A stretch of DNA of 64,000 bases from Parascardovia denticolens DSM 10105 = JCM 12538. GTDB lineage: Bacteria > Actinomycetota > Actinomycetes > Actinomycetales > Bifidobacteriaceae. How positions within the stretch are numbered: position 1 is the stretch's first letter; each line of letters opens with the position of its first letter. The notes under the pieces were generated by a model, which made no database searches, had not been told where the DNA came from, and saw only the letters and a list, made by a program, of their open reading frames with translations. The stretch covers positions 1,550,001 to 1,614,000 of the forward strand of contig NZ_AP012333.1 of assembly GCF_001042675.1 (NCBI RefSeq), given 5' to 3'. The position numbers and the translations under genes were made by a program. Shown here piece after piece: positions 10,849-33,540 of this stretch.

Positions 10849-11074
10849 GTCTACTCCAATTATCTTTTCAACGCCGTCGCCTGCCTTCGTCCCCGTATGC
10901 TCTCAGGAACCGGTGGCGACCAAGCGGTGCATACTCTCATCACCATAGTCGATTCCCCCTGCCGGGGGAAGGAAATGAAAAGTCCTTGGCCGAACTCTCA
11001 CACACAGGAAAACATCGGCGTGGCGACGTTTGATTTCCGTGCAGACAAGATGGCTTTAATTCTTGTTCCTGCCG

Positions 11075-12322
11075 TTATTCAAGCTCAACATTGAATGATC
11101 CATCCTTTTCCATCGACCACGTGCCTCGGACGAATTTCTTCATTGTGATGGTGCGCTCAATGGTATCTCCTTTTTTCGCGAATTCGTAGGAAGCGGTTGT
11201 ATTGATGAAGTCCGTGGTGAATTTCCGGGACTCCATATCAATCGCGTAGATTCTTATATCTCCCAGAAGCTTTCGATTCAGCCCGGTCGGTTTCGGATCC
11301 AACCCTGAAACATCAGGATTGGCGAAACTACAATTTGGAACAGTCACTTGCTTTTTTGCGATGCATCCGTTGATCCGATCTTTGATGGCTTGAGTCAGTC
11401 TTGCAGACAGACTATGCGGTATCAGAGTCTTGCTCACTTCCCAATCCGTCGCATTTCCCCCCGGACCCGTCGCGAATCGAGACGCGGTCGCTTCATACCA
11501 ATGAGTCGACGCAGCCTTCACGTCATAGACTCCAGGGACAAGCTTGACGTTGAGCGTATAGAGCTTTATCGCATACCCTTTCACCACATCATCCGCTTGA
11601 ACGAAAGCGGTCTCATGATTCCCCGTCTTCCTGACGGTCTGCTCGCTACCCCCAACGGTTACAAGACCTGCCGGCGCTTGAAGATTTATCGGCTCCTCAA
11701 GACCTTTCGAGATTCTCCACGCTGAAAAAACATTCCTCCTTTCCGCTTCGACGGTTTGCCGCATTTTTTTACCGCTTAATTCGTACGTGATAGTTGCGTG
11801 GTCACGCGAATCCATCGTGATGTTGACTTTGGCTATTCGCTTGGCTGGCCTTGCGGAAAGCGTACGGTTTCCCACGCTTACATACGAGTTTGCGAGTGTA
11901 GCATCTCCGCGGGCGACGGCTTCCACATAACTTCTGATTGTTCCTTCCGCTGAATTTTTGATGAAAAGAAAGAAAAAAGAGGAAGCGAGGATGAAGAAAA
12001 GCACGATTGCCGCTGTGGCGATCATAAAGGCGAAACTCCGCTGTGCGGGCTTTTCCCGAGCTGGTTGTCTCCCCCAGGTTTGTGAAATCTTCGGCGAAGA
12101 AGCAAACGAATTTGGCGGGTTCAAAGGAGGAAGCTGGCTTGGCATTGGCTGTTGATCCGCTACCTGTTGCCTGGCAGTCGGAACAGGCATACGAAACGGC
12201 TCAGCCGTATCAGTGCCAGGCGAAAGGAAAAGCCCGCAATTCGGACAAAACTCCTCATTTTGCGTTATCGGAGCCTTACAGCGTGGGCACAAAGCTCCAC
12301 CATTCTCTTTCCCATCGTACAT
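11075..12322 (-). CDS. Zinc-ribbon, single-pass membrane protein with extracellular repeat-like region
   Basis: The protein has 415 residues. The ATG at 12322 follows AAGGAAGGTTAACAGA; a start 11 codons upstream is possible. An N-terminal zinc ribbon (CPRCKAPITQNEEFCPNC, four Cys) is followed by a Pro/Gln-rich linker, one membrane helix at about 125-150 (ATAAIVLFFILASSFFFLF), and about 260 outside residues that are beta-rich with no catalytic motif. This layout is that of the TcaA/YvbJ-type zinc-ribbon envelope proteins. The outer part begins with an NTF2-like stretch (RSYVEAVARGDATLANSYV). Base composition is more AT-rich than in neighbouring housekeeping genes, so it may be a late arrival. 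Function unknown; a stress or cell-envelope role is a guess from the architecture. Confidence 0.75.
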   Translation of the reverse strand: MYDGKENGGALCPRCKAPITQNEEFCPNCGLFLSPGTDTAEPFRMPVPTARQQVADQQPMPSQLPPLNPPNSFASSPKISQTWGRQPAREKPAQRSFAFMIATAAIVLFFILASSFFFLFIKNSAEGTIRSYVEAVARGDATLANSYVSVGNRTLSARPAKRIAKVNITMDSRDHATITYELSGKKMRQTVEAERRNVFSAWRISKGLEEPINLQAPAGLVTVGGSEQTVRKTGNHETAFVQADDVVKGYAIKLYTLNVKLVPGVYDVKAASTHWYEATASRFATGPGGNATDWEVSKTLIPHSLSARLTQAIKDRINGCIAKKQVTVPNCSFANPDVSGLDPKPTGLNRKLLGDIRIYAIDMESRKFTTDFINTTASYEFAKKGDTIERTITMKKFVRGTWSMEKDGSFNVELE

Positions 12323-12414
12323 TCTGTTAACCTTCCTTACGAATAAACCCTTCAACTTTGCTTAGCAAAAGCCATATTCCCAAGAAGACGATTTAATCAT
12401 GATGGATTCAACCA

Positions 12415-12446
12415 TTTTGTATACATAAATTTTTGTATACATAAAT
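12415..12446. repeat. Perfect 16-bp tandem duplication containing gtatac palindromes
   Basis: The unit ttttgtatacataaat occurs twice back to back (12415-12430 and 12431-12446), directly beside the hairpin at 12443-12476 and upstream of the zinc-ribbon gene on the minus strand. It could be a pair of operator sites or promoter sequence. Confidence 0.6.
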
Positions 12447-12476
12447 TGGAGACCTCCTGTTTGAAGTCTCCAATTT
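12443..12476 (-). terminator. Hairpin between the LANTG gene and the zinc-ribbon gene
   Basis: Perfect 11-base arms aaattggagac (12443-12453) and gtctccaattt (12466-12476) with a 12-base loop lie 64 bases after the stop of the surface-protein gene. The U-tract is weak on the minus strand; a T-rich tract (ttgtttttg) lies on the plus side, so it may act in both directions. Confidence 0.55.
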
Positions 12477-12539
12477 ACCTATTGTTTTTGCGATTCCACG
12501 GTGAGTGACAGGAAATCAAATCACTGCCTGTCTCAACCG

Positions 12540-13220
12540 CTATTTTACTTTGTAACTACGGCGAATTCGGGATAGAATCGCAGCACCTGCGGCAAACGCC
12601 ACAGACATAACTATGATCAAGTTGATTGACACACCCGTGTTAGCAAGCTGATTTGATTGCTTATACGCACCGTTGGATCCCGTAGATCCAGCATATGTTT
12701 TCTGAGGAGCCTTCGCAGTTCTCCATGACCTCCAAGCAGGAGCGTTATTCGACTTTCGCGGGACAGGAGGAACGAATTTTTGCGGAGCCCAGGGAAGGAA
12801 ATGTCGCGGTGTCGAGGAGGAAGGATTCCGTGGAGCTTCAGACGAGGGAGCACTCGGCGCAGGTTTCGGCACCTGCGGTTTATCTTCAACGGTCTGCTGC
12901 CTGGTACCGCTGTTTCCTGAACTGGCTGAGCCACTTCCAGCTCCATTGCTTCCACCGGATGAAGATCCGCCGGCGTTCCCTGAGGGGTCATCGCCTGGAG
13001 TGCCTGGCGTGGGGACATCCGTGCCATGATTCTCCTCGCCTGGATCGCCCCCCGGCTGAGTTTGCGGGTTGTCAGGGACATCCTGCTGCTGCGAGGCGCT
13101 GGGGCCGCTTAACTCTTCTGCAGCCCATCCACTGGGGACAGCAATCAATAAGAATGCCAGGCAAAAAATCAGTGCCGTAAAACCAGTAACTACCTTATAG
13201 CCTGTTCGTTTGTTCATCAT
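12540..13220 (-). CDS. Cell-wall-anchored Pro/Ser/Gly-rich surface protein with LANTG sorting motif
   Basis: The protein has 226 residues. The start is ATG at 13220 (or the adjacent ATG at 13217), after GAGAGGG. A signal peptide is clear: positive MMNKRTGYK, a hydrophobic core TALIFCLAFLLIAV, and a cleavage-like GWAA. The mature part is low complexity, with Gly/Ser/Pro/Asn-rich runs and no known domain. The C-terminus carries QLANTG, a hydrophobic helix IVMSVAFAAGAAIL, and a basic tail RIRRSYKVK. The LAxTG motif is the type cut by class E sortases of actinobacteria. It lies divergent to the PcfB-like gene of the T4SS module, so a role as a surface adhesin or stalk during cell contact is possible, but no binding domain is visible. 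Confidence 0.8.
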   Translation of the reverse strand: MMNKRTGYKVVTGFTALIFCLAFLLIAVPSGWAAEELSGPSASQQQDVPDNPQTQPGGDPGEENHGTDVPTPGTPGDDPSGNAGGSSSGGSNGAGSGSASSGNSGTRQQTVEDKPQVPKPAPSAPSSEAPRNPSSSTPRHFLPWAPQKFVPPVPRKSNNAPAWRSWRTAKAPQKTYAGSTGSNGAYKQSNQLANTGVSINLIIVMSVAFAAGAAILSRIRRSYKVK

Positions 13221-13473
13221 CGCAGCCCTCTCTTCCGCTCTTACCCTTGAGCTTCTGATCGTTAGTAGAGTTAACCTCGCCCCCAAAGGGGCGAATTCCG
13301 ATATGTCACCGCCCACGTTATCGCAAGGGGTAGAAATCAATAAACATAAAATCAAGACAATCCAATAGTTATTCAATATAGAATATATGATATTATTAGA
13401 ATGTAATCTCTGGGCCGAGAAAAACAAGACCTATTATCCGATTGATGATCCATCAAGAGAAGAGGAAAACGCT

Positions 13474-14241
13474 ATGACAGATGTCCTTGCATCACAGTTG
13501 CAGACGCTCACCCCTCAGGCAATCGCGCTGACCGCTCAAGCTGTCGCCGAACTGCTGGAAGCCCTCGTCCGAAAAGGCGGAGAGACCATTGTGACCAAAA
13601 GCGCTGAAGCTATTGAGCACCGAATGAACAGCGGAAAGATGAGCCTGAAAAAGCTCAATCGTAAAACCGGCGGGGATACATACCGGATCGACCTGAGCAA
13701 ATCAATGGCCAATGATCTCGCGGATAAGCTGAAGAAAGGCGGCATCGATTTCAGCGTCTCTTATGACAAAGCCTCCGGGAAAGGCTTCATCAGTTATCCC
13801 GCCTCATCCGCACCGTTCGTCAACCAGTCCGTGAAGGATGTCTATGCGAAGAACGGTCTGAACCCGGACCTTGTGGACAATGCGACTTCCACGCGGGCCT
13901 TCGCCGCATCCAAACTCGGCTCGACCACCGTTGAAAACATCAACGTGACCAGCAACATCACCATTATCCAGCAACAACCGGAGGCGAAGGCCCCTGACGT
14001 ACGACCGCCGGCGTCACGGCCCGACAGCGCTGAGCCCAGACGGGATCCGGCGAATCGCGATGACTCAGCTCATGCGCAAAAGAGCGCCCCTTCCCGGGAA
14101 GGAGCAAAACCTTCCAAAAAAGAAGTGATGAACGATCTGAAGGCCAGGGCGAAAGCCAAGACGACAATGAATGCTTCGAAGAAGTCTCATCCGCAGACAA
14201 AGATAAGTGCTCCCGCAAAGCCATTAAAAGCTGGGCGTTAA
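13474..14241 (+). CDS. PcfB-like (DUF3801) conjugation protein
   Basis: The protein has 255 residues, starting MTDVLASQLQTLTPQAIALT; the ATG at 13474 follows GAGAAGAGGAAAACGCT. Residues about 1-150 fit the DUF3801/PcfB family: an amphipathic helix at the N-terminus, then a compact alpha/beta part (KMSLKKLNRKTGG ... VSYDKASGKGFISYPA). The last about 90 residues are disordered and rich in Pro, Ala, Lys, Asp and Arg. PcfB-type proteins are encoded next to the VirD4-type coupling protein in Gram-positive conjugative elements and act with it in substrate docking. Here the coupling protein gene starts 130 bases downstream on the same strand, which supports the call. It is the first gene of the plus-strand arm of the T4SS module. 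Confidence 0.72.
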   Translation: MTDVLASQLQTLTPQAIALTAQAVAELLEALVRKGGETIVTKSAEAIEHRMNSGKMSLKKLNRKTGGDTYRIDLSKSMANDLADKLKKGGIDFSVSYDKASGKGFISYPASSAPFVNQSVKDVYAKNGLNPDLVDNATSTRAFAASKLGSTTVENINVTSNITIIQQQPEAKAPDVRPPASRPDSAEPRRDPANRDDSAHAQKSAPSREGAKPSKKEVMNDLKARAKAKTTMNASKKSHPQTKISAPAKPLKAGR

Positions 14242-14371
14242 AGCAGCCGTACGGATAATTCGTTGGGGGAGTCTCTCTGCCTGCATACTTGTCCAGTAGT
14301 AGAGGGGCTCCATTCATTTTGGCTTCGTTTTATTCAGCATTGAAAACAGTTTTGAAAGAAGGTGCACGGAG

Positions 14372-16066
14372 ATGACCCGCCGAAGGCGCGATTTTGCTTG
14401 GACCGGTTGGACTTTCGCCGCCGTGATCGTCGCGTGGATGTCCAATGTCGCCAGCCGCCAGATACGAACCACGTGGGCGGCCACGCATGATATGGCCAGG
14501 GCGGGCGAAAGCGTCAGCACGGCCTGGAGGCATCCCGCTCCCAGCTTCAACAGGACGGACCTGCTCGCGGCCGGAGCCGCAATTGTCATCCTTCTGCTCA
14601 TCTGGGTTTACCAATATGGAGGGCGGAAACAGACCCGGCCGGGAGAGGAGCAGGGATCGGCCACCTGGGCGAAACCTTCGGATATGATCCCCTACTCGAA
14701 TAAGAATAAGGGGGAAAACCTCCTGATGACGAAAACCGAGGCATTGAATCTGGATACACATGCGACTCGGAGAAACCTGAATGTGCTTGTCACCGGCGCC
14801 AGCGGGGCGGGAAAGACCCGCGGCTACGTCCTGCCGAACCTCACCAACCTCGCGCGCCACCACACGCCGATCTCCCTGTGCGTCACCGACCCCAAAGGGG
14901 AGATCTTCACGGCGACGGCGGCGCCAATGCGGCAGGCCGGATGGCGGGTGAAAACCTTCAACCTCATCGACATGGCCTCTTCGGATCATTTCAACCCGCT
15001 CCGATATGTGAATCCCGACGACCCTGAAGGCAGCATCATCCGTCTTGCGGACAACATCCTGTCGAACACCACGAAGGAAAACAGGAATGGTTCAAATGGG
15101 GATTTCTGGGACAAGGCCGCGAAAAGCCTCCTGACCGCTTTGATCGCTTTCACCTGGTTCGTCGAAGAGGAAAAAGACCGGAATCTGAATACGGTCATTC
15201 ATATGCTGCTCGACATGCAGGCGAGCGAAAACGACGAAAACGCCATGAGCCCCACCGATGTCTTATTCCACGATGCTTCTCAGAAAGTCGAAGATTATCA
15301 TCTCTTCCCTGACCAATATGATCAGGCGACCGGCGCCGCCCTGGACGGGCTCGCCTTCGCCTGTTCCCAATATCGGACATACGAGCAGGGGGCGGGAGAA
15401 ACGAAGAAAAGCATCATCACGACCTTGTCGAACAATCTGGCAGGACTGATGACCCACCGCATCCAGGAGATCCTCTCCGACGACACGATGCACCTCGAAG
15501 CCGTCGGCGAACAGCCGACGATCATCTACATCATCATCAGCGACACGAACGCGACATTCACCTATTTGGCGGCGCTTTTCTACCAATGCCTTTTTGAAAC
15601 GACGATTTATCAGGCCGATCATACCCCAGGCGGCGCTTTGGATGTTCCTTTGCACTGCATGCTCGACGAGTTCGCCAACATCGGCAGGATCCCCGGCTTC
15701 CCCACCCTCATCAGCACCATGCGCAGCAGAGGCATCAGCGTCTCCATCATCCTGCAGACAATCGCGCAGATAAAATCCCTTTACAAAGACAATTGGGAAA
15801 CCATCACAGCCAACTGCGACAGCAAACTCTTCCTCGGCGGCAACGATCTGGCGACCACTGAATGGTGGAGCAAGATGCTGGGCAACCAAACGATTTACAT
15901 AACCAGCACCAGCCAGAATAATGGGTCGAACGGCAACTGGGGCCGGCAACAGAATTCGCAGAAACGGGAGCTTCTCGCTCCCGATGAGCTTGGACGCCTT
16001 CCAAACGACCAATGCATCTACCTTCTGCGCGGTCTTCGTCCTTTCCTCTCCCAAAAGCTTCGCTGA
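14372..16066 (+). CDS. VirD4/TraG-type T4SS coupling ATPase
   Basis: The protein has 564 residues, with ATG at 14372 after AAGAAGGTGCACGGAG. Coupling proteins dock DNA-relaxase or protein substrates at the T4SS channel on the membrane and hydrolyse ATP. Two N-terminal membrane helices are visible (about 10-25 and 65-83). The Walker A motif TGASGAGKTRG is at about 144, and Walker B (CMLDEFANIGRIPG) is at about 430. It is followed by the family motifs GISVSIILQTIAQ and ANCDSKLFLGG. It ends with RPFLSQKL, close to the usual end of the conserved domain, so it lacks the long variable C-terminal tail often used for substrate recruitment. It converges with the minus-strand T4SS genes 95 bases later. 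Confidence 0.93.
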   Translation: MTRRRRDFAWTGWTFAAVIVAWMSNVASRQIRTTWAATHDMARAGESVSTAWRHPAPSFNRTDLLAAGAAIVILLLIWVYQYGGRKQTRPGEEQGSATWAKPSDMIPYSNKNKGENLLMTKTEALNLDTHATRRNLNVLVTGASGAGKTRGYVLPNLTNLARHHTPISLCVTDPKGEIFTATAAPMRQAGWRVKTFNLIDMASSDHFNPLRYVNPDDPEGSIIRLADNILSNTTKENRNGSNGDFWDKAAKSLLTALIAFTWFVEEEKDRNLNTVIHMLLDMQASENDENAMSPTDVLFHDASQKVEDYHLFPDQYDQATGAALDGLAFACSQYRTYEQGAGETKKSIITTLSNNLAGLMTHRIQEILSDDTMHLEAVGEQPTIIYIIISDTNATFTYLAALFYQCLFETTIYQADHTPGGALDVPLHCMLDEFANIGRIPGFPTLISTMRSRGISVSIILQTIAQIKSLYKDNWETITANCDSKLFLGGNDLATTEWWSKMLGNQTIYITSTSQNNGSNGNWGRQQNSQKRELLAPDELGRLPNDQCIYLLRGLRPFLSQKLR

Positions 16067-16095
16067 TCCGTTGATTATCCCTTGCTCCCCTGAGA

Positions 16096-16115
16096 GGGAA
16101 AGCGACACGCTTCCC
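16096..16115. terminator. Weak hairpin between convergent T4SS arms
   Basis: GGGAAAGCG / CGCTTCCC arms with a 3-base loop and one bulged A lie between the stops of the coupling-protein gene and the convergent 206-aa gene. There is no U-tract; it may only slow transcription. Confidence 0.35.
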
Positions 16116-16160
16116 ACACTCAGCTCGTCGCTTTCTCCTCTTCGCCTGTCACCGGAAGCA

Positions 16161-16781
16161 TCAGGCCCCATCCTGGCGGGGATGCGCCACATAGTACTTT
16201 CGCGGGTACCGGAATCCCGTCACCACCCACCCGGCTTTTTCGTTTCGCCGTGTTAAAGCCAGAAGCACGAAGGAAGAGTCCGCATCCGTGGCCGCGATTC
16301 TCACCTTGCAAATAAGATGATTACTATTTATGATGCCGCTCAGTTCAGATGAAAAGGGAGGAGGCAGCGGATGAAGAAAATGGTCCGTCGTCTCTCCGAC
16401 GAACCGGAGCCGGGGATCGCGCAAATCGAATCTGCGGAACAGCTGGTCGTAACGGTTGGACCCATACCCGGTAGTCACCCAGTACACCGTCTCCGCGCCG
16501 AGTTGGTCGCACGCCCGCTCCGGCCACATTCCTGCGCCAATGCCCTTGCCTGATTCATGAACGTCACGTCCATGCCATAATGTCTTCTTCGCGATATCCT
16601 GTGAAGCCTTTGTTGATGCCTTGGCACCCGGGGTACGAATCTCAACGGCTGCCGGAAATCCCCCTGCGCTCATCTTCACGCTCACCACAGTGGCTGCGAT
16701 GATGCCGACCACCACGATGAGGACAACGGCGAGAATGCCGTAAAGCACGATTTTCCGACTGCCTCTACGCGAATCTTCCAC
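16161..16781 (-). CDS. Membrane-anchored paralogue of the tandem lipoproteins
   Basis: The protein has 206 residues. It has a GTG start at 16781 with GGAAAGGAACTG upstream. It has one N-terminal membrane helix (VLYGILAVVLIVVVGIIAAT) and no lipobox Cys. The outer domain aligns with the three lipoproteins at 22.5-25.2 kb: WHGRDVHESGKGIGAG against WHGFDIRKSGAGVHPE, ETVYWVT against EAVYWVT, RYDQLFRRF against RYRQLFKRF, then RFVGET with LHPLPPPF against RYVGDS with LQPPYRGK, and GFRYPRKYY against QFYWPKEYY. So a membrane-anchored and a lipid-anchored form of one domain occur in the same operon. It is the last gene of the minus arm, 55 bases after the hydrolase. I do not recognise the family; a structural or shielding role outside the membrane in the T4SS is inferred from position only. 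Confidence 0.72.
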   Translation of the reverse strand: MEDSRRGSRKIVLYGILAVVLIVVVGIIAATVVSVKMSAGGFPAAVEIRTPGAKASTKASQDIAKKTLWHGRDVHESGKGIGAGMWPERACDQLGAETVYWVTTGYGSNRYDQLFRRFDLRDPRLRFVGETTDHFLHPLPPPFSSELSGIINSNHLICKVRIAATDADSSFVLLALTRRNEKAGWVVTGFRYPRKYYVAHPRQDGA

Positions 16782-16836
16782 TACCAGTTCCTTTCCTTAT
16801 ATCGTTCATTGGCTTATCCTGCCCATTCCCCGACGG

Positions 16837-18519
16837 TCAATACCAGTTCGGCGATCGTGACTGCCATTGTCTCCACGCTGCGGATGGCGTTTTATACCTG
16901 TCTTTGATGTACTGCAAGCCCCATTCGATCTGCGTTTTGGGGTTGGTCTTCCAATCGGCCCCTTTCGAAGACATCTTATTCCCTGGCAGGGCCTGGGGGA
17001 TGCCATAAGCATCCGATGTGGGGTTATCGGCATCCCACTTCCAGCCGGACTCGTGGGTCCACAATTGATCCAAAGCATTGAATTCGGACTCCTTCCATCC
17101 GTAGGCGGACAGACGACCCTTCGCATAATTCTTTGCGGCGGTGACCTCCTTGCCCACGTTCCCGGCTGGCGGCGCAGGCACATCGCAGTCGTCGGAATTC
17201 AAATCGGTTTGAGTGCCCTGAACGGCCAGCCCGTTACCGGATCCGGTTGAATCATAGATAAACGTCAACGTTTTATTCTCTTCCAACTGTCGTTTGCTGA
17301 TCTTTGAAACCACAGGCCCACCGTATGCCGAGAAGAAGCCGGTCCCCGCCTGGGAGACCCATATATCACCATTGGGGTCGATCTGCTCCACCACGCTCAC
17401 ATGCCCGTACGCGGGGCTGGCCCCCAATACTCCGGATGGATAGCTGATGACCGCGCCCAGGCGAGGACTGGTGCCTGTTTTGTATCCTTTCGTTTTCGCC
17501 GAGCTGGCCCATTGATTCCCATTCCCCATCTGCTTATCCACAGGCTGACCAAGCATCTTGCGACGGTACGCGGCCCACCACGTGCATTGCTGATAAGCAT
17601 ATGACCAGGGGTCGTTGTCGTATTTCGAAGCGGGGATGCCCATCTTCATGAAGTCAACGACTTTCGTCCCTCCCGACGAATGATAGATAAGGCCCGTCAA
17701 AGCGCCTGACTTTGCATTGAAACCCGCTGAATTTATCGTATACGAGCTGTCGCCGACGCATGCCGCGCTCGCCTGCTGGCTGGTGATCGTCAGAAAATTG
17801 ACGATGAAAGAGATGACCATCGTCACAGCTATGAATATCGCGATTATCGGCGCCAAGACGGCGATGACGGATGTCACGGTGTTCACGACCATGGTGACGA
17901 CGGCGGCGATGATAGACCCGATGGCCTTCAGCGCCTGCATGGCGGAAGCCGCGCTATGCATGGCCGCGCGCGCCGCGTCAAGCGACTGTTTGGCCGCCTT
18001 GAAACTCTTGCGAGCGGCTTTGAAACTTCGGGAGGCGGCTCGAATGGATCGCTTCGAATGCGCCAATGTTTTCCTGGCGGCTTTGACGGATCCTTTGGCG
18101 AGCGTCAAACCCCTGGACGCTTCTTCCACCGCGACTTGCGTGGTTTCGTCGCCATCCGCCGCCTGTAAATCGAAAAAGCGGTTTATCCCCGCGTCAGCCA
18201 CTTTCGCTGATCCTCGAATGACCCCCTGGGAAACCCCAAGCGCGGTTCTCCCGACTCTTTTACCCGCTTTTTTGCCGAGGCCCAGCAAAATCCTGCCTTT
18301 GGTCTTTCCATCCGACTTCGCGAACGCGCGCACGCGCGAAGGGGCGTTCGCGGCGAAAGAGACGATTTTCACCGTTTTCTTCGCAACGGCCACAGGGGCT
18401 TCCGCCACTGAGGCGGCGGCTTTCACCGTTTTCACGGTTGTTTTCGCGGCGACCCGGGCGGTGCTGACTTGGATCCTGAGACTGTCCGACGCCTCATGCT
18501 CTTGTTCGTGCGCAGGCAT
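16837..18519 (-). CDS. T4SS peptidoglycan hydrolase: helical N-terminus, membrane helices, CHAP and transglycosylase-like domains
   Basis: The protein has 560 residues, starting MPAHEQEHEASDSLRIQ, 6 bases after the VirB4 stop. The N-terminal about 200 residues are Ala/Lys-rich helical sequence with repeated SxKAARKS-type units. A strongly hydrophobic stretch at about 205-245 follows and probably crosses the membrane. A CHAP amidase/endopeptidase domain has its Cys in QQCTWWAAYR (about 311) and His in AYGHVSVVEQ (about 372). The C-terminus is a lysozyme-like transglycosylase domain with a likely catalytic Glu in LWTHESGWKWDADN (about 486), followed by the usual AYGIPQ. Such two-enzyme proteins (VirB1/TcpG/CwlT-like) open the cell wall locally for the conjugation channel. 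CwlT-type enzymes usually have the transglycosylase first; here the order is CHAP then transglycosylase. Confidence 0.88.
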   Translation of the reverse strand: MPAHEQEHEASDSLRIQVSTARVAAKTTVKTVKAAASVAEAPVAVAKKTVKIVSFAANAPSRVRAFAKSDGKTKGRILLGLGKKAGKRVGRTALGVSQGVIRGSAKVADAGINRFFDLQAADGDETTQVAVEEASRGLTLAKGSVKAARKTLAHSKRSIRAASRSFKAARKSFKAAKQSLDAARAAMHSAASAMQALKAIGSIIAAVVTMVVNTVTSVIAVLAPIIAIFIAVTMVISFIVNFLTITSQQASAACVGDSSYTINSAGFNAKSGALTGLIYHSSGGTKVVDFMKMGIPASKYDNDPWSYAYQQCTWWAAYRRKMLGQPVDKQMGNGNQWASSAKTKGYKTGTSPRLGAVISYPSGVLGASPAYGHVSVVEQIDPNGDIWVSQAGTGFFSAYGGPVVSKISKRQLEENKTLTFIYDSTGSGNGLAVQGTQTDLNSDDCDVPAPPAGNVGKEVTAAKNYAKGRLSAYGWKESEFNALDQLWTHESGWKWDADNPTSDAYGIPQALPGNKMSSKGADWKTNPKTQIEWGLQYIKDRYKTPSAAWRQWQSRSPNWY

Positions 18520-18525
18520 GGCTCA

Positions 18526-21060
18526 TCACCACATCCCATGCAGACCGTGACGACCAGCATACGCATCCCCTGCCGAATCCGCCGTAGTCTCTTGAGCTGG
18601 CTGCGTAGCGACATGTTCAACATCCTCTTGTTCTTGGGATAAAACTGGCGGCTGATCCCCGAATTTCGTCGAGTACAGGCGGGCCAACAGGTTCCCCTGA
18701 TCCATCCGATTATCCACTCCCAAGGAAACTCCGTTCGTATTCAAGAGCCCATTACCCGATCGAGCGTTTGTCATCAGCCTCACCTGTTCGTCCGACAGTT
18801 CCAGCAGCTCCTGGAGCATGGTCGCGTCCGTCGTCTTCTGGTTCATCAGCAGCAGGAAGTCCGCGTTCGACAGCATGAGCCGCGCCTGATCGTTGCTCAA
18901 GAGCTCGTCGATGTTCTGCGTGATACCGGTGACCCCCAGCCCGTATTTGCGGGCCCGCTTGTAGATGTCCAGGAAGCTGCGGATCGAATACTCGTTATGG
19001 AAGAAGCGGTGGAACTCGTCCACGTACAGCCAGGTGCGCAACCCGGTGTCCCGGTTGGCGCGTACCAGGCTCCAGATCTGGTCCAGGATGACCATCATGC
19101 CGAAGGTCTGCACCTCACCGGCCAGGGCGGACACGTCGAACACGAGGAACTGGCCCGTCAGGTCCACGTTCGTCCGGTGGGCGAAACCCGACGAGGAGCC
19201 GGTGGTGAACATCTCCAGTTCGGTGACCAGGTCGGCCGCTTCCGGGGATGGGTTGTCCACCTGCACGTACAGGCGACGAATTTGCTCTTTCAAATCCACG
19301 AGAGTCGGCTGGTCATACCGTCCAGTCGCATTGAGCTGAGATCGGGCGATACGGTACACGTTCATGGCCGCCGTGTCGATCATGCTGCGCTTAAGTTGAC
19401 TGAGACCAGTCGTCCCTCCCATCAGGGATCCCAGTAAATCAAGCACTACCGAAACTTTTGCGCGAACCGGGTCGGTCTCATCCGACCCCATAAGATCAAT
19501 GTCCAAAGGATTCATATGCTGGGCGGAATCCGCCGAAACGGTGACTACCGTGCCTCCAAGAGCTTGCGCTAATTGCACGTACTCATGCTCCGGGTCGATG
19601 ATCACCACCCGGTCCGCCGAATCCAGGACGCGCTGCGCGATCTCCGCCTTCGCCGACTGGGACTTGCCCGACCCGGTCGTACCCAGGATGAACCCATTCG
19701 AATTCATATGCGCCGCCCGGTTCACGATCACCGGATTGCCGCTCCTCTCATTCACCCCATAGAACAGGCCATGAGGCTCCATGATCTCCTGAGCGGTGAA
19801 CGGGATGAGAATCGACGCGCTGTCCGTGGTCAACGCACGCCTCATGGGAAGCCTATTATCGCCCAAAGGCAGCATGGCGTTCAACGCCTCCGGCATCATG
19901 TACCGGGTCACGCTCATCCGGCAGGAAAGCCGTCGAGCGACTCTTTGAACTTCGGAAATCACCATATCAAGTTCATCTTTGCTTGATGCGCTCACACTCA
20001 CTAACACCAAAGTATCCAGGATCCGCTGATTACTACTGCGCAGCTGGTCCAGCAGGCTGGTCATCTCATCCACCCGCTCCGTAATCGAATCCGGCACGCT
20101 CTCCGCAGTCAGCCCCTGCCGGGCAAGGGATTGCACGCTCCGGTCATACTCGCTCTTCACCCCCGCCTGCTTCGCCTTCACCCTCTCCAGGCCATCAGCC
20201 CTATCCCACGGCCGGATATGCACGGTGACCACGATACTGGCGGTGATATCCGCCAAATCCGACACCAGCGTATCCGTCAGCTGCGCCGGCCACGAATCCA
20301 GCCAGACATGGGACATCCACACCTCATCCATGCTGGAGAGCTTGATCCGGTCTTTATCCGTGAAATCCATCGCCCATGGCACGATGAAATCTTTTGCCCG
20401 CATATCCTTCGGCGCCCGGGCGAAAGCCTCCTCACTGAACGTGAACGGCTCCCCAGGCTGCAGCATGGAATGCAACACCCGCAGCCGGCCCGTCCTATCC
20501 AACTGGTCAGCCTGGCAGCCCATCGCGGCAAGCTGAGACCGCAGGGAAGCGACCAGCCGGTTCAAACGGCCCACCGCCCTGTCCTGATCCGCCTCTTGAA
20601 CGGAAATCGTGACATATTTATCAGTGACCGTGCTCGACGCCAACCCCTTCAACTGGCCAAAGGTAAGATCATTAAAAGCGTCCCGCCACCTGTCAAGGCC
20701 ATCGCCTCGACAGGACATCCTCACACCGCGCGACAAGGCCTTTCCATCAAGCACCCGGTTGGCGCTGGTGACTTGCACGCGCGTATTCTCGTCAAACATG
20801 TTCAGCACACCCATCCATTCGTTAAGGATCTTCTTCTGCGCCTCTATAGATGCGAGAACATAATTAACATCACTAATCTCTACCGTTGCGCTCCACCAGT
20901 CATCGCCAACATACGCCACCCCATCAGGGCGCAAACCATCCAGCCACACCATATCGGAAGATTGACGGGCGCGTTTACGCACGGCTTTGGCGTGCTTTTT
21001 CGATTCCGCACTGAATTTTTGATTAGCATTATTGTCTTTGGAATTCTTAGCGCCGAACAT
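18526..21060 (-). CDS. VirB4-type T4SS ATPase
   Basis: The protein has 844 residues, with ATG at 21060 after GAGGATGCAATC. VirB4/TrsE/TcpF-type proteins power assembly and transfer at the inner face of the membrane. Walker A is GTTGSGKSQSAK at about 463, Walker B is LYVDEFHRFF at about 681, and the following TGITQNIDELLSN stretch is typical of the family. The N-terminal 400 residues form the conserved VirB4 N domain (for example RMSCRGDG and the RMSVTRYMMPEALNAMLPLG segment). The N-terminus is Lys-rich and has no membrane helix. It is located between the prgI-like gene (41 bases upstream) and the hydrolase gene, the standard order in Gram-positive conjugation modules. Confidence 0.94.
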   Translation of the reverse strand: MFGAKNSKDNNANQKFSAESKKHAKAVRKRARQSSDMVWLDGLRPDGVAYVGDDWWSATVEISDVNYVLASIEAQKKILNEWMGVLNMFDENTRVQVTSANRVLDGKALSRGVRMSCRGDGLDRWRDAFNDLTFGQLKGLASSTVTDKYVTISVQEADQDRAVGRLNRLVASLRSQLAAMGCQADQLDRTGRLRVLHSMLQPGEPFTFSEEAFARAPKDMRAKDFIVPWAMDFTDKDRIKLSSMDEVWMSHVWLDSWPAQLTDTLVSDLADITASIVVTVHIRPWDRADGLERVKAKQAGVKSEYDRSVQSLARQGLTAESVPDSITERVDEMTSLLDQLRSSNQRILDTLVLVSVSASSKDELDMVISEVQRVARRLSCRMSVTRYMMPEALNAMLPLGDNRLPMRRALTTDSASILIPFTAQEIMEPHGLFYGVNERSGNPVIVNRAAHMNSNGFILGTTGSGKSQSAKAEIAQRVLDSADRVVIIDPEHEYVQLAQALGGTVVTVSADSAQHMNPLDIDLMGSDETDPVRAKVSVVLDLLGSLMGGTTGLSQLKRSMIDTAAMNVYRIARSQLNATGRYDQPTLVDLKEQIRRLYVQVDNPSPEAADLVTELEMFTTGSSSGFAHRTNVDLTGQFLVFDVSALAGEVQTFGMMVILDQIWSLVRANRDTGLRTWLYVDEFHRFFHNEYSIRSFLDIYKRARKYGLGVTGITQNIDELLSNDQARLMLSNADFLLLMNQKTTDATMLQELLELSDEQVRLMTNARSGNGLLNTNGVSLGVDNRMDQGNLLARLYSTKFGDQPPVLSQEQEDVEHVATQPAQETTADSAGDAYAGRHGLHGMW

Positions 21061-21101
21061 GATTGCATCCTCTTCGAATCAAATTCTTATCATCCTTATT
21101 A

Positions 21102-21563
21102 TTATTCTTCTTCTACCGCTGCTGACAGGCCCATCACAAAACCGTCCGCGTTCCCCTGCATGGCCTGCGAGAAAGCCGGCTCCTGGTCCAGCGGCATCGC
21201 GTGCTCATCAACCCGTTTCAACTCTTTCGCCGAGGCAGCCGGACGTGCCGCAGGGATTGCTCCCCCGTAAATCAATGGCCGCGGTTTCAAATCTCGTCTC
21301 CACGACACGTATCTTGCCAGCCAGTCCTCCAGCGGCAGCCCTGATTTACGAAACCATCCGACAGCAACCAGAATAGCGATCGGGATAATGATCACTTGGT
21401 TAATAACGGATGATACACTCGCCGGAGCTAAGAATTGACAAGCGATTGCGCTTATCGCACAGACTGCAATCCCTCCAACACATCCCAGTTGCCGCAGAGT
21501 GAAACCGAACCAGGACTTGGGATCCACCTGGTTGATATCCGTCGGCACATCCATCACTAGCAT
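21102..21563 (-). CDS. PrgI-family (VirB3-like) T4SS membrane protein
   Basis: The protein has 153 residues, with ATG at 21563 after GGAGGAAGCGAC. The start MLVMDVPTDINQVDPKSWFG and two closely spaced membrane helices (about 28-45 and 57-72) followed by GLPLEDWLARYVSWRR match the PrgI family, the functional counterpart of VirB3, which works with VirB4 and the VirB6-like channel protein. The C-terminal 60 residues are a hydrophilic tail with no motif. It lies directly between the VirB6-like and VirB4 genes, as in other Gram-positive T4SS. Confidence 0.85.
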   Translation of the reverse strand: MLVMDVPTDINQVDPKSWFGFTLRQLGCVGGIAVCAISAIACQFLAPASVSSVINQVIIIPIAILVAVGWFRKSGLPLEDWLARYVSWRRDLKPRPLIYGGAIPAARPAASAKELKRVDEHAMPLDQEPAFSQAMQGNADGFVMGLSAAVEEE

Positions 21564-21583
21564 GTCGCTTCCTCCAATCCTCT

Positions 21584-22468
21584 TTAGCCTTGGCCGAACA
21601 AGGCCTTGGCGGCTTTCTGACTGATGACCACCAGGCCTCCCAGCAGGAAGCTTGTGGCTAATAATCCTCCAAAATTCGACGATATCAATTGGTCGAAGGT
21701 CGTCGAGCTATTGATGTTCAAAAGATCCTGCCGCATCGACCCATAAATGCCTATCGCTATCAAGAGGGTAATATTCGAGAAGGCACAGGAGGCATATGTC
21801 CGTATATATCCCTCACCCCAGCTTTTCGTCCCTTCATATGACAGGAAGCTAATGGGGAGAGCTCCGAACGCGGTCATGATGATGAGTTCGAAAAAACGAA
21901 GAAGAACCAGTATCTTCACGATAATCCCGATTGCGACAGACACCAGGAAGGGGATGAGCAAAACCACATAACCCATTATCTTGCTGAAGGTTCCGGCGGA
22001 TTGAATCTTCGGTTTCATGAAATCGCCTAGCTGAACCGTCCGACCTTTATTTAGTAACGGCTGGGGAACGAAAGCTTTGTTAGTTGAGACATTGATAATT
22101 TTGGTCACTCCGCTACCTATTTGTTGTATCAAATAGGTGATCAGCTGGCATAGCCATTCGGCGTTCATGGCGGCCATGTAGATGATGATGATTTTTATCA
22201 AGGCGGATACAATCATCCTCACGCCCCGATCCCCCGTCTCGTCCACATGCTTGGAAACCTTGATGATCTCCAAAGTGAAGACAATCGCGAGAATCGTCAT
22301 CGCCACCGGCTTCACCGCCTGCGTAGAAATACTCGTCGCCGTCTTATAGGCGTCGGGATACTTGCCCGCCGGCGTTTGGGTAAGCAATCCAATCGTATCC
22401 TTGTCCAACTGCGAGCTGATCGCGTTGAGCATGCCCACAAGACCATCGTCAATCCAACTGAAATCCAC
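21584..22468 (-). CDS. VirB6/TrbL-like polytopic T4SS channel protein
   Basis: The protein has 294 residues. It has a GTG start at 22468 preceded by AAGAGGATTCAA. About six membrane helices are visible (around 55-75, 85-105, 112-125, 172-198, 200-222, 245-262 and a final one around 273-290). A long N-terminal soluble part precedes the first helix. This layout matches the VirB6-like channel proteins (CD0411/TrsL/TcpH types) encoded upstream of prgI and virB4. Its first roughly 100 codons are duplicated in the partial copy at 23226-23684, with nearly identical residues (DDGLV against DNGLV, LTQTP against LSQTP). Confidence 0.82.
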   Translation of the reverse strand: MDFSWIDDGLVGMLNAISSQLDKDTIGLLTQTPAGKYPDAYKTATSISTQAVKPVAMTILAIVFTLEIIKVSKHVDETGDRGVRMIVSALIKIIIIYMAAMNAEWLCQLITYLIQQIGSGVTKIINVSTNKAFVPQPLLNKGRTVQLGDFMKPKIQSAGTFSKIMGYVVLLIPFLVSVAIGIIVKILVLLRFFELIIMTAFGALPISFLSYEGTKSWGEGYIRTYASCAFSNITLLIAIGIYGSMRQDLLNINSSTTFDQLISSNFGGLLATSFLLGGLVVISQKAAKALFGQG

Positions 22469-22558
22469 TTGAATCCTCTTCCTTGGACAAGAGGCATATG
22501 AAAGCTAGGGCCAAGAATTCCCGCCGCACTCTCATATCTATGCCAACGATACTTAATC

Positions 22559-23137
22559 TTAGTCGTCAATATTTTGGTTCGAATCCCCCTTGTAGTATTC
22601 CTTCGGCCAATAGAACTGACCTACGGTCCACCCCCCTGATTTCACTTTGCTTAAAGACAATTCAACGAAATCATTTTGGACGATATATACTACACATGAT
22701 ACCTGATCGTCATCGAATTTCTGGTTTGTTTTTCCTCGATACGGTGGCTGCAAGGTATGCGCGAAATCAGAAGGGGAGTCCCCCACATACCGCAAACTAA
22801 AATCACTGTCCTTCTCCCCCAAATGGAAGCGTTTGAACAGTTGGCGGTAACGTTCAGGACCGTCCTTGGAGGTGACCCAATACACTGCCTCAGGAGCCAC
22901 CTTCCGGCACACCTCATCCTGCGACGTGATCTCCGGATGCACCCCAGCCCCCGACTTACGGATATCAAACCCATGCCAGTCATACTCAACAGGGATGCTC
23001 GGCGCAGACGAAGCGGAAGACTTTTTGGACGAAGCCGGAGCCGGCTGAGACGACCCACAGCCAGCCAACAAACACACCGACGCGGCCACAGCGACAAAAC
23101 CACTGACAAAACGACGCACACCATTTTTCACACTCAT
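22559..23137 (-). CDS. Tandem lipoprotein 1 of the T4SS operon
   Basis: The protein has 192 residues, starting MSVKNGVRRF. It has a lipoprotein signal peptide with lipobox LLAGC (Cys about 26), then an Ser/Ala/Pro linker and a compact domain with WHGFDIRKSGAGVHPE, EAVYWVTSKDGPERYRQLF, RYVGDSPSDF, LQPPYRGK, and WPKEYYKG near the end. The domain contains two Cys in addition to the lipid-anchored one (EVCRKV and VSCVVY), possibly a disulphide. It lies upstream of the virB6-like gene, so in the middle of the operon. I do not recognise the family. Because it is outside, lipid-anchored and duplicated, it may shield the cell surface, act in exclusion, or form part of the channel; none of these is shown. 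Confidence 0.85.
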   Translation of the reverse strand: MSVKNGVRRFVSGFVAVAASVCLLAGCGSSQPAPASSKKSSASSAPSIPVEYDWHGFDIRKSGAGVHPEITSQDEVCRKVAPEAVYWVTSKDGPERYRQLFKRFHLGEKDSDFSLRYVGDSPSDFAHTLQPPYRGKTNQKFDDDQVSCVVYIVQNDFVELSLSKVKSGGWTVGQFYWPKEYYKGDSNQNIDD

Positions 23138-23225
23138 ATTCTAATTCCTTTCAAAAAACAAAAACTCCACAAATCAATCGCACAAAACATGTGCACAAGA
23201 CCATCATCACATCAACCGAAATCCA

Positions 23226-23684
23226 TCAGCCCACCCCCATTCCGAACATCCAATACCGACCTCCACAATCAAAAACAGACAACCCATACCCCTCCACCGT
23301 AAGAAAGGCCCTCATTGGCCGACACCCCGCCCCTGTAGCACCCCTCCGGCCACTAAAAACGCAAAACAGTCCACCCCTGACCATGGCGGCCATGTAGATG
23401 ATGATGATCTTTATCAAGGCGGATACAATCATCCTCACGCCCCGATCCCCCGTCTCGTCCACATGCTTGGAAACCTTGATAATCTCCAAAGTGAAGACAA
23501 TCGCGAGAATCGTCATCGCCACCGGCTTCACCGCCTGCGTAGAAATACTCGTCGCCGTCTTATAGGCGTCAGGATACTTACCCGCCGGCGTCTGGCTGAG
23601 CAACCCAATCGTATCCTTGTCCAACTGCGAACTGATCGCGTTAAGCATGCCCACAAGACCATTATCAATCCAACTGAAATCCAC
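23226..23684 (-). pseudogene. Truncated second copy of the virB6-like gene
   Basis: The GTG at 23684 opens a frame that is nearly identical to the first about 100 residues of the full VirB6-like protein up to IIIIYMAAM. It then switches at about 23385 into unrelated sequence (VRGGLFCVFSGRRG...) and stops at 23226. Only the first one or two membrane helices remain, so a channel function is impossible. It is a by-product of the tandem duplication. A small membrane peptide might still be made, because the ribosome site is intact. Confidence 0.85.
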
Positions 23685-23775
23685 TTGAATCCCCTTCCTT
23701 AGACAAGAGGCACATGAAAGCAGGGGTCAAGAATTCCTGCCACACCTTCATATCTATGCCAATAATACCCAAGTC

Positions 23776-24399
23776 TTAGAATTCAAAGTTTTGGTTCGAA
23801 TCCCCCTTGTAGTATTCCTTCGGCCAATAGAACCGATCCACGCTCCACCCCTGCGATTCCGGCTTCGATAACATCAGCGAAACGGGCTCATTCTCATCCT
23901 TTGTGATATACACACTGCAGGTCACAGGACTGTTATCGTAATTATCGTTTTTCTGTATTGCTCTTCCTTTATTATCGAATTTCTGTCCCGTCTCTCCCCT
24001 ATAGGGAGGCTGGAAGATATGCGTGAAATCAGAAGGGGAGTCCCCCACATACCACGGACTGTAATCATCATCCTTCTCCCGCAGATAGAAGCGTTTGAAC
24101 AACTGACGGTAACGTTCCTTCCCATCTTTGGCAGTGACCCAATACACCGCCTCAGGAGCCACCTTCCGGCACGCCTCATCCTGCGACGTGATCTCCGGAT
24201 GCACCCCAGCCCCCGACTTACGGATATCAAACCCATGCCAGTCATACTCAACGGGAATAGACGGCACGGACGAAGCGGAAGACTTTTTGGACGAAGCCGG
24301 AGCCGGCTGAGACGACCCACAGCCAGCCAACAAACACACCGCCGCGGCCACAGCCACGCAACCACCGACAAAACGACGCATGCTATTTTTCACACTCAT
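23776..24399 (-). CDS. Tandem lipoprotein 2 of the T4SS operon
   Basis: The protein has 207 residues. The ATG at 24399 (MSVKNSMRRF) is chosen by analogy with the other copies and the GAAAGGAATGGGACT site; an ATG at 24423 is in frame. It has lipobox LLAGC, and the domain is nearly identical to lipoprotein 1 through EAVYWVTAKDGKERYRQLF. It differs mainly by an insertion after the PPYRGE motif (about 12-15 residues, rich in Asn, Asp, Lys) and by KPESQGWSVDRF near the C-terminus. Divergence is concentrated in the second half, while the signal peptide and first half are conserved, which may reflect selection for variety or gene conversion in the first half. Confidence 0.85.
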   Translation of the reverse strand: MSVKNSMRRFVGGCVAVAAAVCLLAGCGSSQPAPASSKKSSASSVPSIPVEYDWHGFDIRKSGAGVHPEITSQDEACRKVAPEAVYWVTAKDGKERYRQLFKRFYLREKDDDYSPWYVGDSPSDFTHIFQPPYRGETGQKFDNKGRAIQKNDNYDNSPVTCSVYITKDENEPVSLMLSKPESQGWSVDRFYWPKEYYKGDSNQNFEF

Positions 24400-24579
24400 A
24401 GTCCCATTCCTTTCAAAAAACAAAAACTCTACAAATCAATCGCACAAAACATGTGCACAAGACCATCATCACGTCAACCGAAATCCACTTGAATCCCCTT
24501 CCTTAGACAAGAGACGCATGAAAGCAGGAGCTAAGAATTCCCGCCGCACTCTCATATCTATGCCAATAATACCCAAGTC

Positions 24580-25161
24580 TTAGCCTTCCATATTTTGGTT
24601 CGAACCCCCCTTGTAGTATTCCTTCGGCCAATAAAAACGCGAAACAGTCCACCCCCCTGATTTCAATTTGCTTAAAGTCAATTCAACGAAATCATTTTGG
24701 ACGATATATACTACACATGTTGCATGCTCGTTATCAAATTTCTGGTTTGTTTTTCCTTGATACGGTGGCTGCAAGGTATGCGTGAAATCAGAAGAGGGGC
24801 CGCCAACGTACCACGGAGTGCTCCCGGCACTTTTCCCCAGCCTCAGGTAGAAGCGTTTGAACAGTTGGCGGTAACGCTCGGGGCCGTCCTTGGCGGTGAT
24901 CCAATACACCGCCTCAGGAGCCACCTTCCGGCACGCCTCATCCGGCGACGTAATCTCCGGATGCACCCCCGCCCCCGACTTACGCGCGTCGAACCCATGC
25001 CAATCATACTCAGCGGGGATAGCCGGCACGGACGAGACGGAAGACTTTTTGGATGAAGCAGGGGCCGGCTGAGCCGACCCGCAGCCAGCCAACAAACACA
25101 CCGACGCGGCCACAGCGACAAAACCACCGACAAAACGATGCACACCATTTTTCACACTCAT
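24580..25161 (-). CDS. Tandem lipoprotein 3 of the T4SS operon
   Basis: The protein has 193 residues, starting MSVKNGVHRF at 25161 after GAAAGGAATGGGACT. It has the same signal peptide and lipobox LLAGC, then WHGFDARKSGAGVHPE, EAVYWITAKDGPERYRQLF, PWYVGGPSSDFTHTLQPPY and WPKEYYKG. It is the first of the three copies in transcription order, 75 bases after the 205-aa membrane protein gene. Its second half (VVYIVQNDFVELTLSKLKSGGW) is closer to copy 1 than to copy 2, so the copies look like a mosaic. Confidence 0.85.
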   Translation of the reverse strand: MSVKNGVHRFVGGFVAVAASVCLLAGCGSAQPAPASSKKSSVSSVPAIPAEYDWHGFDARKSGAGVHPEITSPDEACRKVAPEAVYWITAKDGPERYRQLFKRFYLRLGKSAGSTPWYVGGPSSDFTHTLQPPYQGKTNQKFDNEHATCVVYIVQNDFVELTLSKLKSGGWTVSRFYWPKEYYKGGSNQNMEG

Positions 25162-25236
25162 AGTCCCATTCCTTTCAAAAAAACAAACATCGAAACCGAA
25201 GCCATTGCGCGTATGCGAACCACCCTTGATGGTCCT

Positions 25237-25854
25237 TCATCGGCCCTCTTGCTGATCTCCTTCCTCTTGGATGGTGGTATCGATGATAGGGGGCTGAGCG
25301 GGAGCTCCACCACCGGTGGTGGCGAAATACATGGTTTGCCCTTGAGACTGCATGGGGGGAGTCTGCTCGCCCATAGCAGCCCCATTGGGCTGAACGTAGT
25401 ACGCTTTCACAGGGACAATCTGGACTTGAATGGGCTGCTGCCGCGGAGACGGCGCATCGGTCAATGCTTCTCCGCTGTCCGGATCAAGGCCGACTTTGAT
25501 GCGGGATTCCCGCAGCTGCCGCTCTATCCTCACGGCTTCCCGCGCTTCGAACCTGCGCAGGAGAAACTCGTGAAGAATCTGGCATAAAGCGGCCAGAACA
25601 CCGGGAATCAGGGCAAGCACCCAGGCGGAATGCGCATGGAACTTCGTAGCGAATTCAGCGACGACAGCCACCAGGAGCATCAGAGCGGTCGCAGCCTTGC
25701 AAAGGGTCCGCAAAGCCGCGGAGAGGGTCAGAAGCGGATGGGAAATCAAATCAGAGATGAACGTGGCCCCACCCACGACAAACGCGAAAATCGCCGACAG
25801 AACCGTCACGACTCCCGTTCCAATCAACCAAACAGAAAGCGGAATAACAAACAT
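25237..25854 (-). CDS. Multi-pass membrane protein of the T4SS operon
   Basis: The protein has 205 residues, with ATG at 25854 after AAAGGAGGATGAACG. Two to four hydrophobic segments lie in the first 110 residues (LSVWLIGTGVVTVLSAIFAF; ATALMLLVAVVAEFA; WVLALIPGVLAALCQILH), then a charged helix LRRFEAREAVRIERQLRESR and a Pro/Gln-rich tail that is probably cytoplasmic. I do not recognise the family. It sits between the small Maff2-like gene and the lipoprotein array, the place where Gram-positive T4SS operons often carry a poorly conserved membrane subunit. Confidence 0.7.
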   Translation of the reverse strand: MFVIPLSVWLIGTGVVTVLSAIFAFVVGGATFISDLISHPLLTLSAALRTLCKAATALMLLVAVVAEFATKFHAHSAWVLALIPGVLAALCQILHEFLLRRFEAREAVRIERQLRESRIKVGLDPDSGEALTDAPSPRQQPIQVQIVPVKAYYVQPNGAAMGEQTPPMQSQGQTMYFATTGGGAPAQPPIIDTTIQEEGDQQEGR

Positions 25855-25971
25855 CGTTCATCCTCCTTTTGAATCTTCCGCATCAAAGCAAGTGACTTGA
25901 CCTCGCGGACCATACGTTCGGTCCCGCGAATCATCAACGGCCAGCCCGCGGGCCAGTCCGAGGGAACCCGC

Positions 25972-26223
25972 TTACGAAACCAGCCCTTTGAACAGGGCGG
26001 CGACGGCGATGATGATTCCGGCCCCGACCAGCTGCCAGACGCCAGACTGAATTTGAGGACCTGCATGGTCTTTGAGGCCACCAGCCAGGGTGACGCCTCC
26101 GAAAACTCCCCAAAGGCCCCCGCCGATGATGACCCATGTCGACAAGGTGTTAAGGACGTTCGTCACCACAGTGGATCCATCCGCGAGGACGACACTTCCA
26201 GCGGCAATAACTGAATCAAACAT
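25972..26223 (-). CDS. Small Maff2/VirB2-like two-helix membrane protein
   Basis: The protein has 83 residues, starting MFDSVIAAGSVVLADG. Two hydrophobic helices (about 28-48, Gly-rich, and 64-80) are separated by a short hydrophilic loop with GLKDHAGPQIQSGVW. Size and layout match the Maff2-type small membrane proteins found at the start of Gram-positive conjugation operons; VirB2/TrbC pilin-like subunits have a similar form. First gene of the minus-strand T4SS arm. Confidence 0.75.
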   Translation of the reverse strand: MFDSVIAAGSVVLADGSTVVTNVLNTLSTWVIIGGGLWGVFGGVTLAGGLKDHAGPQIQSGVWQLVGAGIIIAVAALFKGLVS

Positions 26224-26663
26224 GATTATCTACTCTTTCTAATCTTTCCAGAAATATTGACTTACATAGACTTCATTGAAAAATTTCTTCACCATCACGA
26301 AGCGGATGCTCCGCTAAGCCTGCTTCATACAGGTACTAGGGAAAAGCGCCCCTTTCTCTTGGGAACGGCTTCGCATGACGCCGCTTCCCCGAATTGGTAA
26401 GCGCGCGTAGGACAGCCATTATAGTGGGCTGATGAAGGTGCTGTGGGATTCGTCATTCGTTCTCTCCTTAAACCGAGCCACTTCTATTCTGAATTATGAG
26501 GCTATGATACGAGTCACCTCGGACTAAAGTCAAAATCAACCGATAAGATTTATAAATATATTTATAAATATAAGCATTTCCGGACGGTTATCTGCCGCCT
26601 ATCTATCGCTGATACCCGTCATCAATGTGATACTCACGCCTAAGGCGGCGCACGTGATGTGCC
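26224..26663. other. Leader region of the minus-strand T4SS arm (no gene seen)
   Basis: This 440-base stretch has no convincing gene. It contains a 6-bp hairpin (agcgga/tccgct, 26301-26315) and a longer hairpin at about 26360-26392 with bulged GGGAACGGC/GCCGCTTCCC arms. An AT-rich block lies at 26545-26575. The promoter of the T4SS operon probably lies here. No attachment site or integrase gene is visible at this edge of the module. Confidence 0.6.
26549..26572. repeat. Perfect 12-bp AT-only tandem duplication
   Basis: The unit tttataaatata occurs at 26549-26560 and again at 26561-26572, in a GC-rich genome. It lies in the T4SS leader region. Confidence 0.6.
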
Positions 26664-32114: not shown

Positions 32115-32144
32115 AGCAACCCCTTTCCTGAATCGGAAATACCA

Positions 32145-32717: not shown

Positions 32718-32741
32718 CCTTTCCCATGCTCCTTTCCTGCG

Positions 32742-33407: not shown

Positions 33408-33540
33408 TCCTTCCTCCCCTTGATCGTGTTTCACCTTTTTGGGAATATGCCACCTGGCCCGCATTATATCATTTCGTCCGCATGAGCGATTCACGTCATC
33501 GACGGCGGACCGTCCTGGGCGTCTGCCAGGAGCATAATGA

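Follow-up and report, generated by a model that had tools for sequence, protein, structure and literature searches.

A tandem array of variable lipoproteins with a predicted VirB8-like domain beside virB6 in a type IV secretion island of Parascardovia denticolens

Introduction

TraM of pIP501, TcpC of pCW3, and OrfG of ICESt3 are extracytoplasmic proteins of the NTF2-like domain class, held by a transmembrane helix and encoded within type IV secretion system (T4SS) operons. Another group of conjugation proteins comprises small lipoproteins. YddJ of ICEBs1 is a lipoprotein that acts on the VirB6 homologue ConG. TrbK of RP4 and Eex, the exclusion protein of pKM101, are likewise described as lipoproteins. 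YddJ mediates exclusion in ICEBs1 (PMC9578413), and in IncP, IncW, and IncN systems the exclusion-lipoprotein gene adjoins the virB6 homologue (PMC11493245). Tandem paralogues in which conserved blocks surround variable ones, with mosaicism from recombination and in some cases fragments of a partner gene, are known from tipC, esaG, and the lpl arrays of Staphylococcus aureus (PMC9484751). Finally, the actinobacterial CD1110-type T4SS, as in pTZC1 of Cutibacterium, has the gene order VirB2, VirB6, PrgI, VirB4, wall hydrolase, and post-hydrolase protein.

Here we describe a locus of Parascardovia denticolens DSM 10105 = JCM 12538 that partly resembles each of these systems. It lies in a stretch of 64,000 nucleotides (nt), referred to as the window (C1:1550001-1614000), within a 1.89-Mb single-contig genome, and consists of three lipoprotein genes in tandem beside virB6 of a T4SS. 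The array proteins share with TraM, TcpC, and OrfG the T4SS-operon location, the extracytoplasmic placement, and, by prediction, the domain class, but they carry a lipid anchor instead of a transmembrane helix, have no sequence-profile match to that group, and occur as three variable tandem copies beside virB6 on top of a normal membrane-anchored copy. Like TrbK, Eex, and YddJ they are small lipoproteins, although no sequence relationship to these was found and several diversified copies share one locus. Its organization recalls tipC, esaG, and lpl, except that the gene next door, from which the fragments derive, encodes a conjugation channel protein rather than a toxin. Compared with pTZC1, the stretch between virB2 and virB6 has gained a membrane protein gene as well as the lipoprotein array, and the island has no recognized relaxase.

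Results

The array comprises three intact lipoprotein open reading frames (ORFs), lipo1 to lipo3, all on the minus strand, each with the lipid attachment motif (lipobox LLAGC) inside its first 27 residues and each followed by virB6-derived sequence (Table 1). The original prediction of a tandemly amplified lipoprotein gene, with three intact copies sharing a conserved lipobox, was borne out by self-alignment: positions 24487-23382 match 23225-22166 over 1106 nt at 84.6% identity, and 25187-24450 match 23162-22430 over 740 nt at 85.7% (the printed E-value is 0 for both). The junction motif caaccgaaatcca that it had pointed out is present at 23214 and 24474. It had also proposed that virB6 was carried along, which holds in part, but the inventory is longer. 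Alongside the three intact lipoprotein genes lie the terminal 51 nt of a fourth; virB6 is present as one intact gene, as a piece of 101 codons, and as two degenerate starts of 49 nt each. The fourth lipoprotein remnant and the second degenerate start had been missed. What had been taken for three codons of virB6 is one of these 49-nt starts, which contain in-frame stops and match virB6 at 37/49 positions, against 28/49 for the best of 2000 shuffles. Similarly, the "foreign tail" ascribed to the ~100-codon piece starts as the fourth-lipoprotein remnant read out of frame; the next ~100 nt form a filler that shows no similarity to the corresponding spacer above shuffles and is not a recognizable spacer copy. 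The description of the virB6 pieces as decaying is unsupported for the 101-codon piece, which is open and 96% identical to virB6.

This longer piece differs from virB6 by 10 synonymous and 2 nonsynonymous codon changes, 10 of the 12 falling in codons 7-38 and both nonsynonymous changes on the fragment's branch. Given this excess of synonymous change, neutral decay is unsupported, and the piece either was truncated recently or is homogenized with virB6 by conversion. Spacers from lipoprotein to virB6 differ by 10-16%, and 90 nt separate the end of lipo1 from the virB6 start. Counts from a search for promoters and terminators in the degenerate virB6 starts were at chance level. As the copies are ~15% or more apart and all lie in one contig of a single-contig genome, an assembly artefact is disfavored. 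The array may have grown by two tandem duplications, in an order of events that we infer: the older would have joined virB6 codon 16 to a lipoprotein leader, and the younger, virB6 codon 101 to a lipoprotein 3' end. Both copies of the codon-16/leader joint are nearly identical, which suggests that this joint probably arose a single time.

Table 1. Features of the lipoprotein array and its surroundings (window coordinates; aa, amino acids)
Feature	Coordinates	Strand	Basis
Island absent from two congeners	10849..26663		DivIVA-like and pcp genes are neighbors in both congeners (G001, G002)
DUF3801 protein, VirD4 neighbor	13387..14241	+	PF12687, E 3.1e-20; DUF3801 adjoins VirD4 in pTZC1
VirD4-type coupling protein	14372..16066	+	PF02534, E 1.1e-57
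Membrane-anchored VirB8-like protein, lipoprotein paralogue	16161..16781	-	~31% identity; model best matches TcpC (Z 7.6), DotI (Z 6.7)
CHAP cell-wall hydrolase of the T4SS	16837..18519	-	PF05257, E 2e-18
VirB4 ATPase, CD1110 family	18526..21060	-	NF045971, E 1.7e-257
PrgI-like protein	21102..21563	-	63-65% identical to L043 and L044 counterparts; position annotated PrgI family in related plasmids
Intact virB6 homologue, 294 aa	21584..22468	-	PF04610 TrbL/VirB6, E 3.8e-13
lipo1, lipoprotein, 192 aa; V1 like lipo2, V2 like lipo3	22559..23137	-	Mosaic test, P = 1e-4 and 5e-5
Second degenerate virB6 5' end, 49 nt	23177..23225	-	48/49 identical to first
101-nt filler between 51-nt remnant and second degenerate virB6 start	23226..23326	-	No spacer similarity above shuffles
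51-nt remnant, 3' end of fourth lipoprotein, fused out of frame to virB6 fragment	23327..23377	-	84% to lipo3 (24605-24655)
virB6 fragment, codons 1-101, open	23382..23684	-	96% identical to intact virB6
lipo2, lipoprotein, 206 aa; divergent 3' segment (V2) and 13-aa insertion	23776..24396	-	Lipobox; V2 synonymous sites saturated versus both others
First degenerate virB6 5' end, 49 nt, in-frame stops, leads into lipo2 leader	24439..24487	-	37/49 versus virB6 start
lipo3, lipoprotein, 193 aa; first array gene	24580..25161	-	Lipobox LLAGC; 79% identical to lipo1
Membrane protein, 205 aa, between virB2 and array	25237..25854	-	ORF; no Pfam match
VirB2-like small membrane protein	25972..26223	-	84% and 64% identical to virB6-adjoining gene of the genome's two other T4SSs; named from position and size

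The three lipoproteins resemble the protein encoded after the CHAP hydrolase gene, both in the same island (~31% identity) and in a sister T4SS (35%). Among 189 genomes of the family, 50 of which have a match to the window VirB6, a profile search found related proteins in 12; those whose context was examined all occupy the same post-CHAP position, and a 15-sequence alignment contains two invariant cysteines. The AlphaFold2 model of lipo1 has a mean predicted local distance difference test score (pLDDT) of 75, with a core at ~90 and above. Its best structural match is TraM of pIP501 (4ec6; Z 8.5, 2.9 Å over 95 residues), followed by TcpC (3ub1; 8.2), another TraM periplasmic fragment (7.9), DotI (7.5), and two VirB8 structures (7.3 and 7.2). 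All six top matches are thus VirB8-class, which points to an NTF2-like fold by prediction, with Z scores of only 7.2-8.5. A separate, weaker model of the island's own post-CHAP paralogue (pLDDT 66) matched TcpC first and then DotI; the two models are not fully independent, as their alignments share members. No VirB8-type Pfam or NCBIfam match was found for lipo1 to lipo3 up to an E-value of 0.1, and PADLOC returned nothing for them. Because the same class is returned for two models in a T4SS context, the best reading is that the array genes encode lipid-anchored proteins with a VirB8-like domain, paralogues of the membrane-anchored protein of the T4SS. That paralogue has an N-terminal transmembrane helix, as expected of VirB8, whereas the array proteins have a lipobox signal in its place; we therefore file them as VirB8-like-domain lipoproteins and not as members of VirB8.

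The lipoprotein genes are under purifying selection. Ratios of nonsynonymous to synonymous substitution rates (dN/dS) across whole genes are 0.24-0.38 for the three pairs, and nonsynonymous change per site is depleted relative to synonymous change (P = 8e-6, 8e-5, and 2e-11). In two segments, V1 (~residues 104-125) and V2 (~142-165), synonymous divergence is far above that of the remainder. lipo3 is the divergent copy in V1 (dS 0.94 and 2.3), and in V2 the synonymous sites of lipo2 are saturated versus both others, with no synonymous difference between lipo1 and lipo3. lipo1 accordingly groups with lipo2 over V1 but with lipo3 over V2, the site classes being clustered at the P values of Table 1 in a three-sequence test that omits gapped columns and whose segment borders were picked after inspection. 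Block-wise synonymous divergence together with this clustering indicates that the copies diversified through recombination that brought in whole blocks, and not through point mutation; recombination with divergent alleles after the duplications would thereby have exchanged the V1 and V2 segments. Conserved blocks thus flank variable ones in a tandem array whose copies appear to recombine. No donor of the V1 or V2 blocks was found in the rest of the genome, plasmids, genome contigs, or viral contigs. The original prediction that selection keeps the lipoproteins fits these comparisons, and of the dosage or diversity that it thought to matter, diversity is the half supported by the block-wise mosaicism; its picture of plain duplicates captures the duplication, but the copies are also mosaics, and their relation to the T4SS's own VirB8-like protein (16161-16781) had been overlooked.

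The arrangement was not seen in any relative examined. At all 31 other virB6 loci compared (29 from other genomes of the family and 2 from the present one; many are close relatives, so the number of independent cases is below 31), a gap of 20-95 nt separates the end of the VirB2 match from the virB6 match, with no intervening lipoprotein gene. Three plasmids, from Cutibacterium, Microbacterium, and Leifsonia, have the same plain order. Because the array is absent from all these loci, including the genome's two other T4SSs, and from the three plasmids, it is not a required part of the channel. A virB6 search over 394 genomes of the class gave no match outside the present genome, and the wider comparison therefore rests on plasmids. 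The genomes searched yielded no further isolate of the species in which copies could be counted. No relatives of the array were found in plasmids, viral contigs, or the rest of the genome, and a match among genome contigs in Oceanibaculum, only 30 residues long, was judged spurious. Four genomes of the family contain isolated N-terminal pieces of virB6, which were considered as a parallel arrangement and rejected, being truncated virB2-virB6 remnants. These remnants (L075-L078) are short N-terminal pieces that lack the rest of the T4SS, and L076-L078 share a chromosomal neighborhood.

Transcription on the minus strand runs from the VirB2-like gene through the membrane protein gene, lipo3, lipo2, lipo1, virB6, and the PrgI, VirB4, and CHAP hydrolase genes to the membrane-anchored protein gene, with the VirD4 and DUF3801 genes facing the opposite way. 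Every T4SS gene of the island has an open, full-length reading frame. DivIVA-like and pcp genes flank the T4SS block; they lie ~100 nt apart in both congeners (G001 and G002) but 15.8 kb apart here, which identifies the block as an island. No flanking direct repeats of 12 nt were found. A PF03432 relaxase is absent from the window; the genome has three, two near the other two T4SSs and the third elsewhere. The island ORFs scanned contained no recognized relaxase (by Pfam; genome-wide, relaxase families other than PF03432 were not searched) and no integrase; as far as these scans reach, the island does not unite the two, as an integrative and conjugative element would. Beyond DUF3801, two further island genes (11075-13427) encode a membrane protein with a zinc ribbon and a protein rich in Ser and Pro whose C terminus bears a sortase-like signal (LANTG, a hydrophobic stretch, and a basic tail). 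Further along the window, positions 30242-33494 hold a gene for a lipase-like protein (GHSLG motif; weakly matching Mbeg1-like, cutinase, and class-3 lipases) and, after it, three DUF1310 membrane-protein genes in tandem, which together look like a possible effector and its immunity array.

The genome's two further related T4SSs (L043, in a conjugative element around C1:166-191 kb, and L044) show that related competing elements are real. A 2.3-kb virB4 tract of the window (18647-20943) is 96% identical in DNA to L043 (12048-14343), with flanking genes at ~73% or less, and is likely a gene-conversion tract between mobile elements. In L044 (C1:1680001-1700000), the genes for CHAP, VirD4, and the post-CHAP protein each appear to be divided between reading frames, and this third T4SS looks to be decaying.

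Discussion

Our leading guess for the function of the array, held with somewhat less than even confidence, is entry exclusion. The lipoproteins would sit on the outer face of the recipient's membrane and, when a related element arrives, block its channel; V1 and V2 would set specificity, with the copies supplying a repertoire. As mimics of the VirB8 domain, they may take the site at which VirB8 or VirB6 of the incoming machine docks. We favor exclusion because of the lipoboxes, the VirB8-class match, the absence from relatives, the combination of purifying selection with mosaic V1 and V2, and the related T4SSs in the genome. lipo1 also abuts virB6, the position of known exclusion-lipoprotein genes. 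Several observations weigh on the other side. Z scores of ~8 are near the level of chance matches as described by the tool, Foldseek gave no E-value below 0.001, and no credible sequence match exists among solved structures. The lipoproteins match no known exclusion family in Pfam or NCBIfam. The array occurs in one genome only, so that specificity cannot be tied to a given VirB6. The island has no recognized relaxase or integrase, and the array would therefore exclude other elements rather than its own.

It is also conceivable, if rather unlikely, that the lipoproteins are accessory structural subunits, that is, extra VirB8-type cell-wall components whose copies give dosage or mixed oligomers. 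The predicted fold of lipo1 and its paralogue and the location within the T4SS operon are consistent with this, as is the ability of MPF-FATA elements to encode alpha-class VirB8 alone or with gamma-class (PMC11753425). The 31 loci and three plasmids that lack the array argue against it, though, as do the diversification of V1 and V2 in blocks, which interchangeable subunits would not be expected to show, and the lipobox that replaces the usual transmembrane anchor.

A less probable role is that of an immunity or surface-antigen array, acting against an effector of this or a related T4SS or presenting variable antigens to phage or host. The TipC lipoprotein immunity genes and EsaG show the same pattern of conserved ends, a variable center, and recombination between tandem copies, some with partner-gene fragments (PMC9484751). 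Here, however, the fragments are only of virB6, the neighbors are T4SS genes with no toxin gene beside the array, and the lipase-like gene ~5 kb away has its own DUF1310 row. Equally improbable in our estimate is passive debris, in which tandem duplication in a dying, relaxase-less element has left functionless copies. Such an origin could explain the lack of a recognized relaxase or integrase, the stops in the degenerate virB6 starts, and the partial virB2-virB6 remnants in Bifidobacterium-type genomes, but not three ORFs intact at ~15% divergence with nonsynonymous change suppressed (P of 8e-5 to 2e-11), nor the open, full-length T4SS genes of the island.

Returning to entry exclusion, a broader version, which we regard as unlikely though worth stating, is that a VirB8 part became a lipid-anchored decoy and that its amplification beside virB6 produced an exclusion repertoire that recombines and covers several specificities on a relaxase-less island, the host using a retired conjugation machine as a defense against related mobile elements. 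Little is known about the mechanism of exclusion in conjugation of Gram-positive bacteria and actinobacteria. Should the array serve exclusion, its VirB8-like lipoproteins would tie exclusion proteins by descent to a subunit of the machine, and the three variants, with their exchanged segments, would form a natural set for locating specificity determinants. If the lipoproteins instead help to build the channel, the VirB8-like part would be able to function with a lipid anchor.

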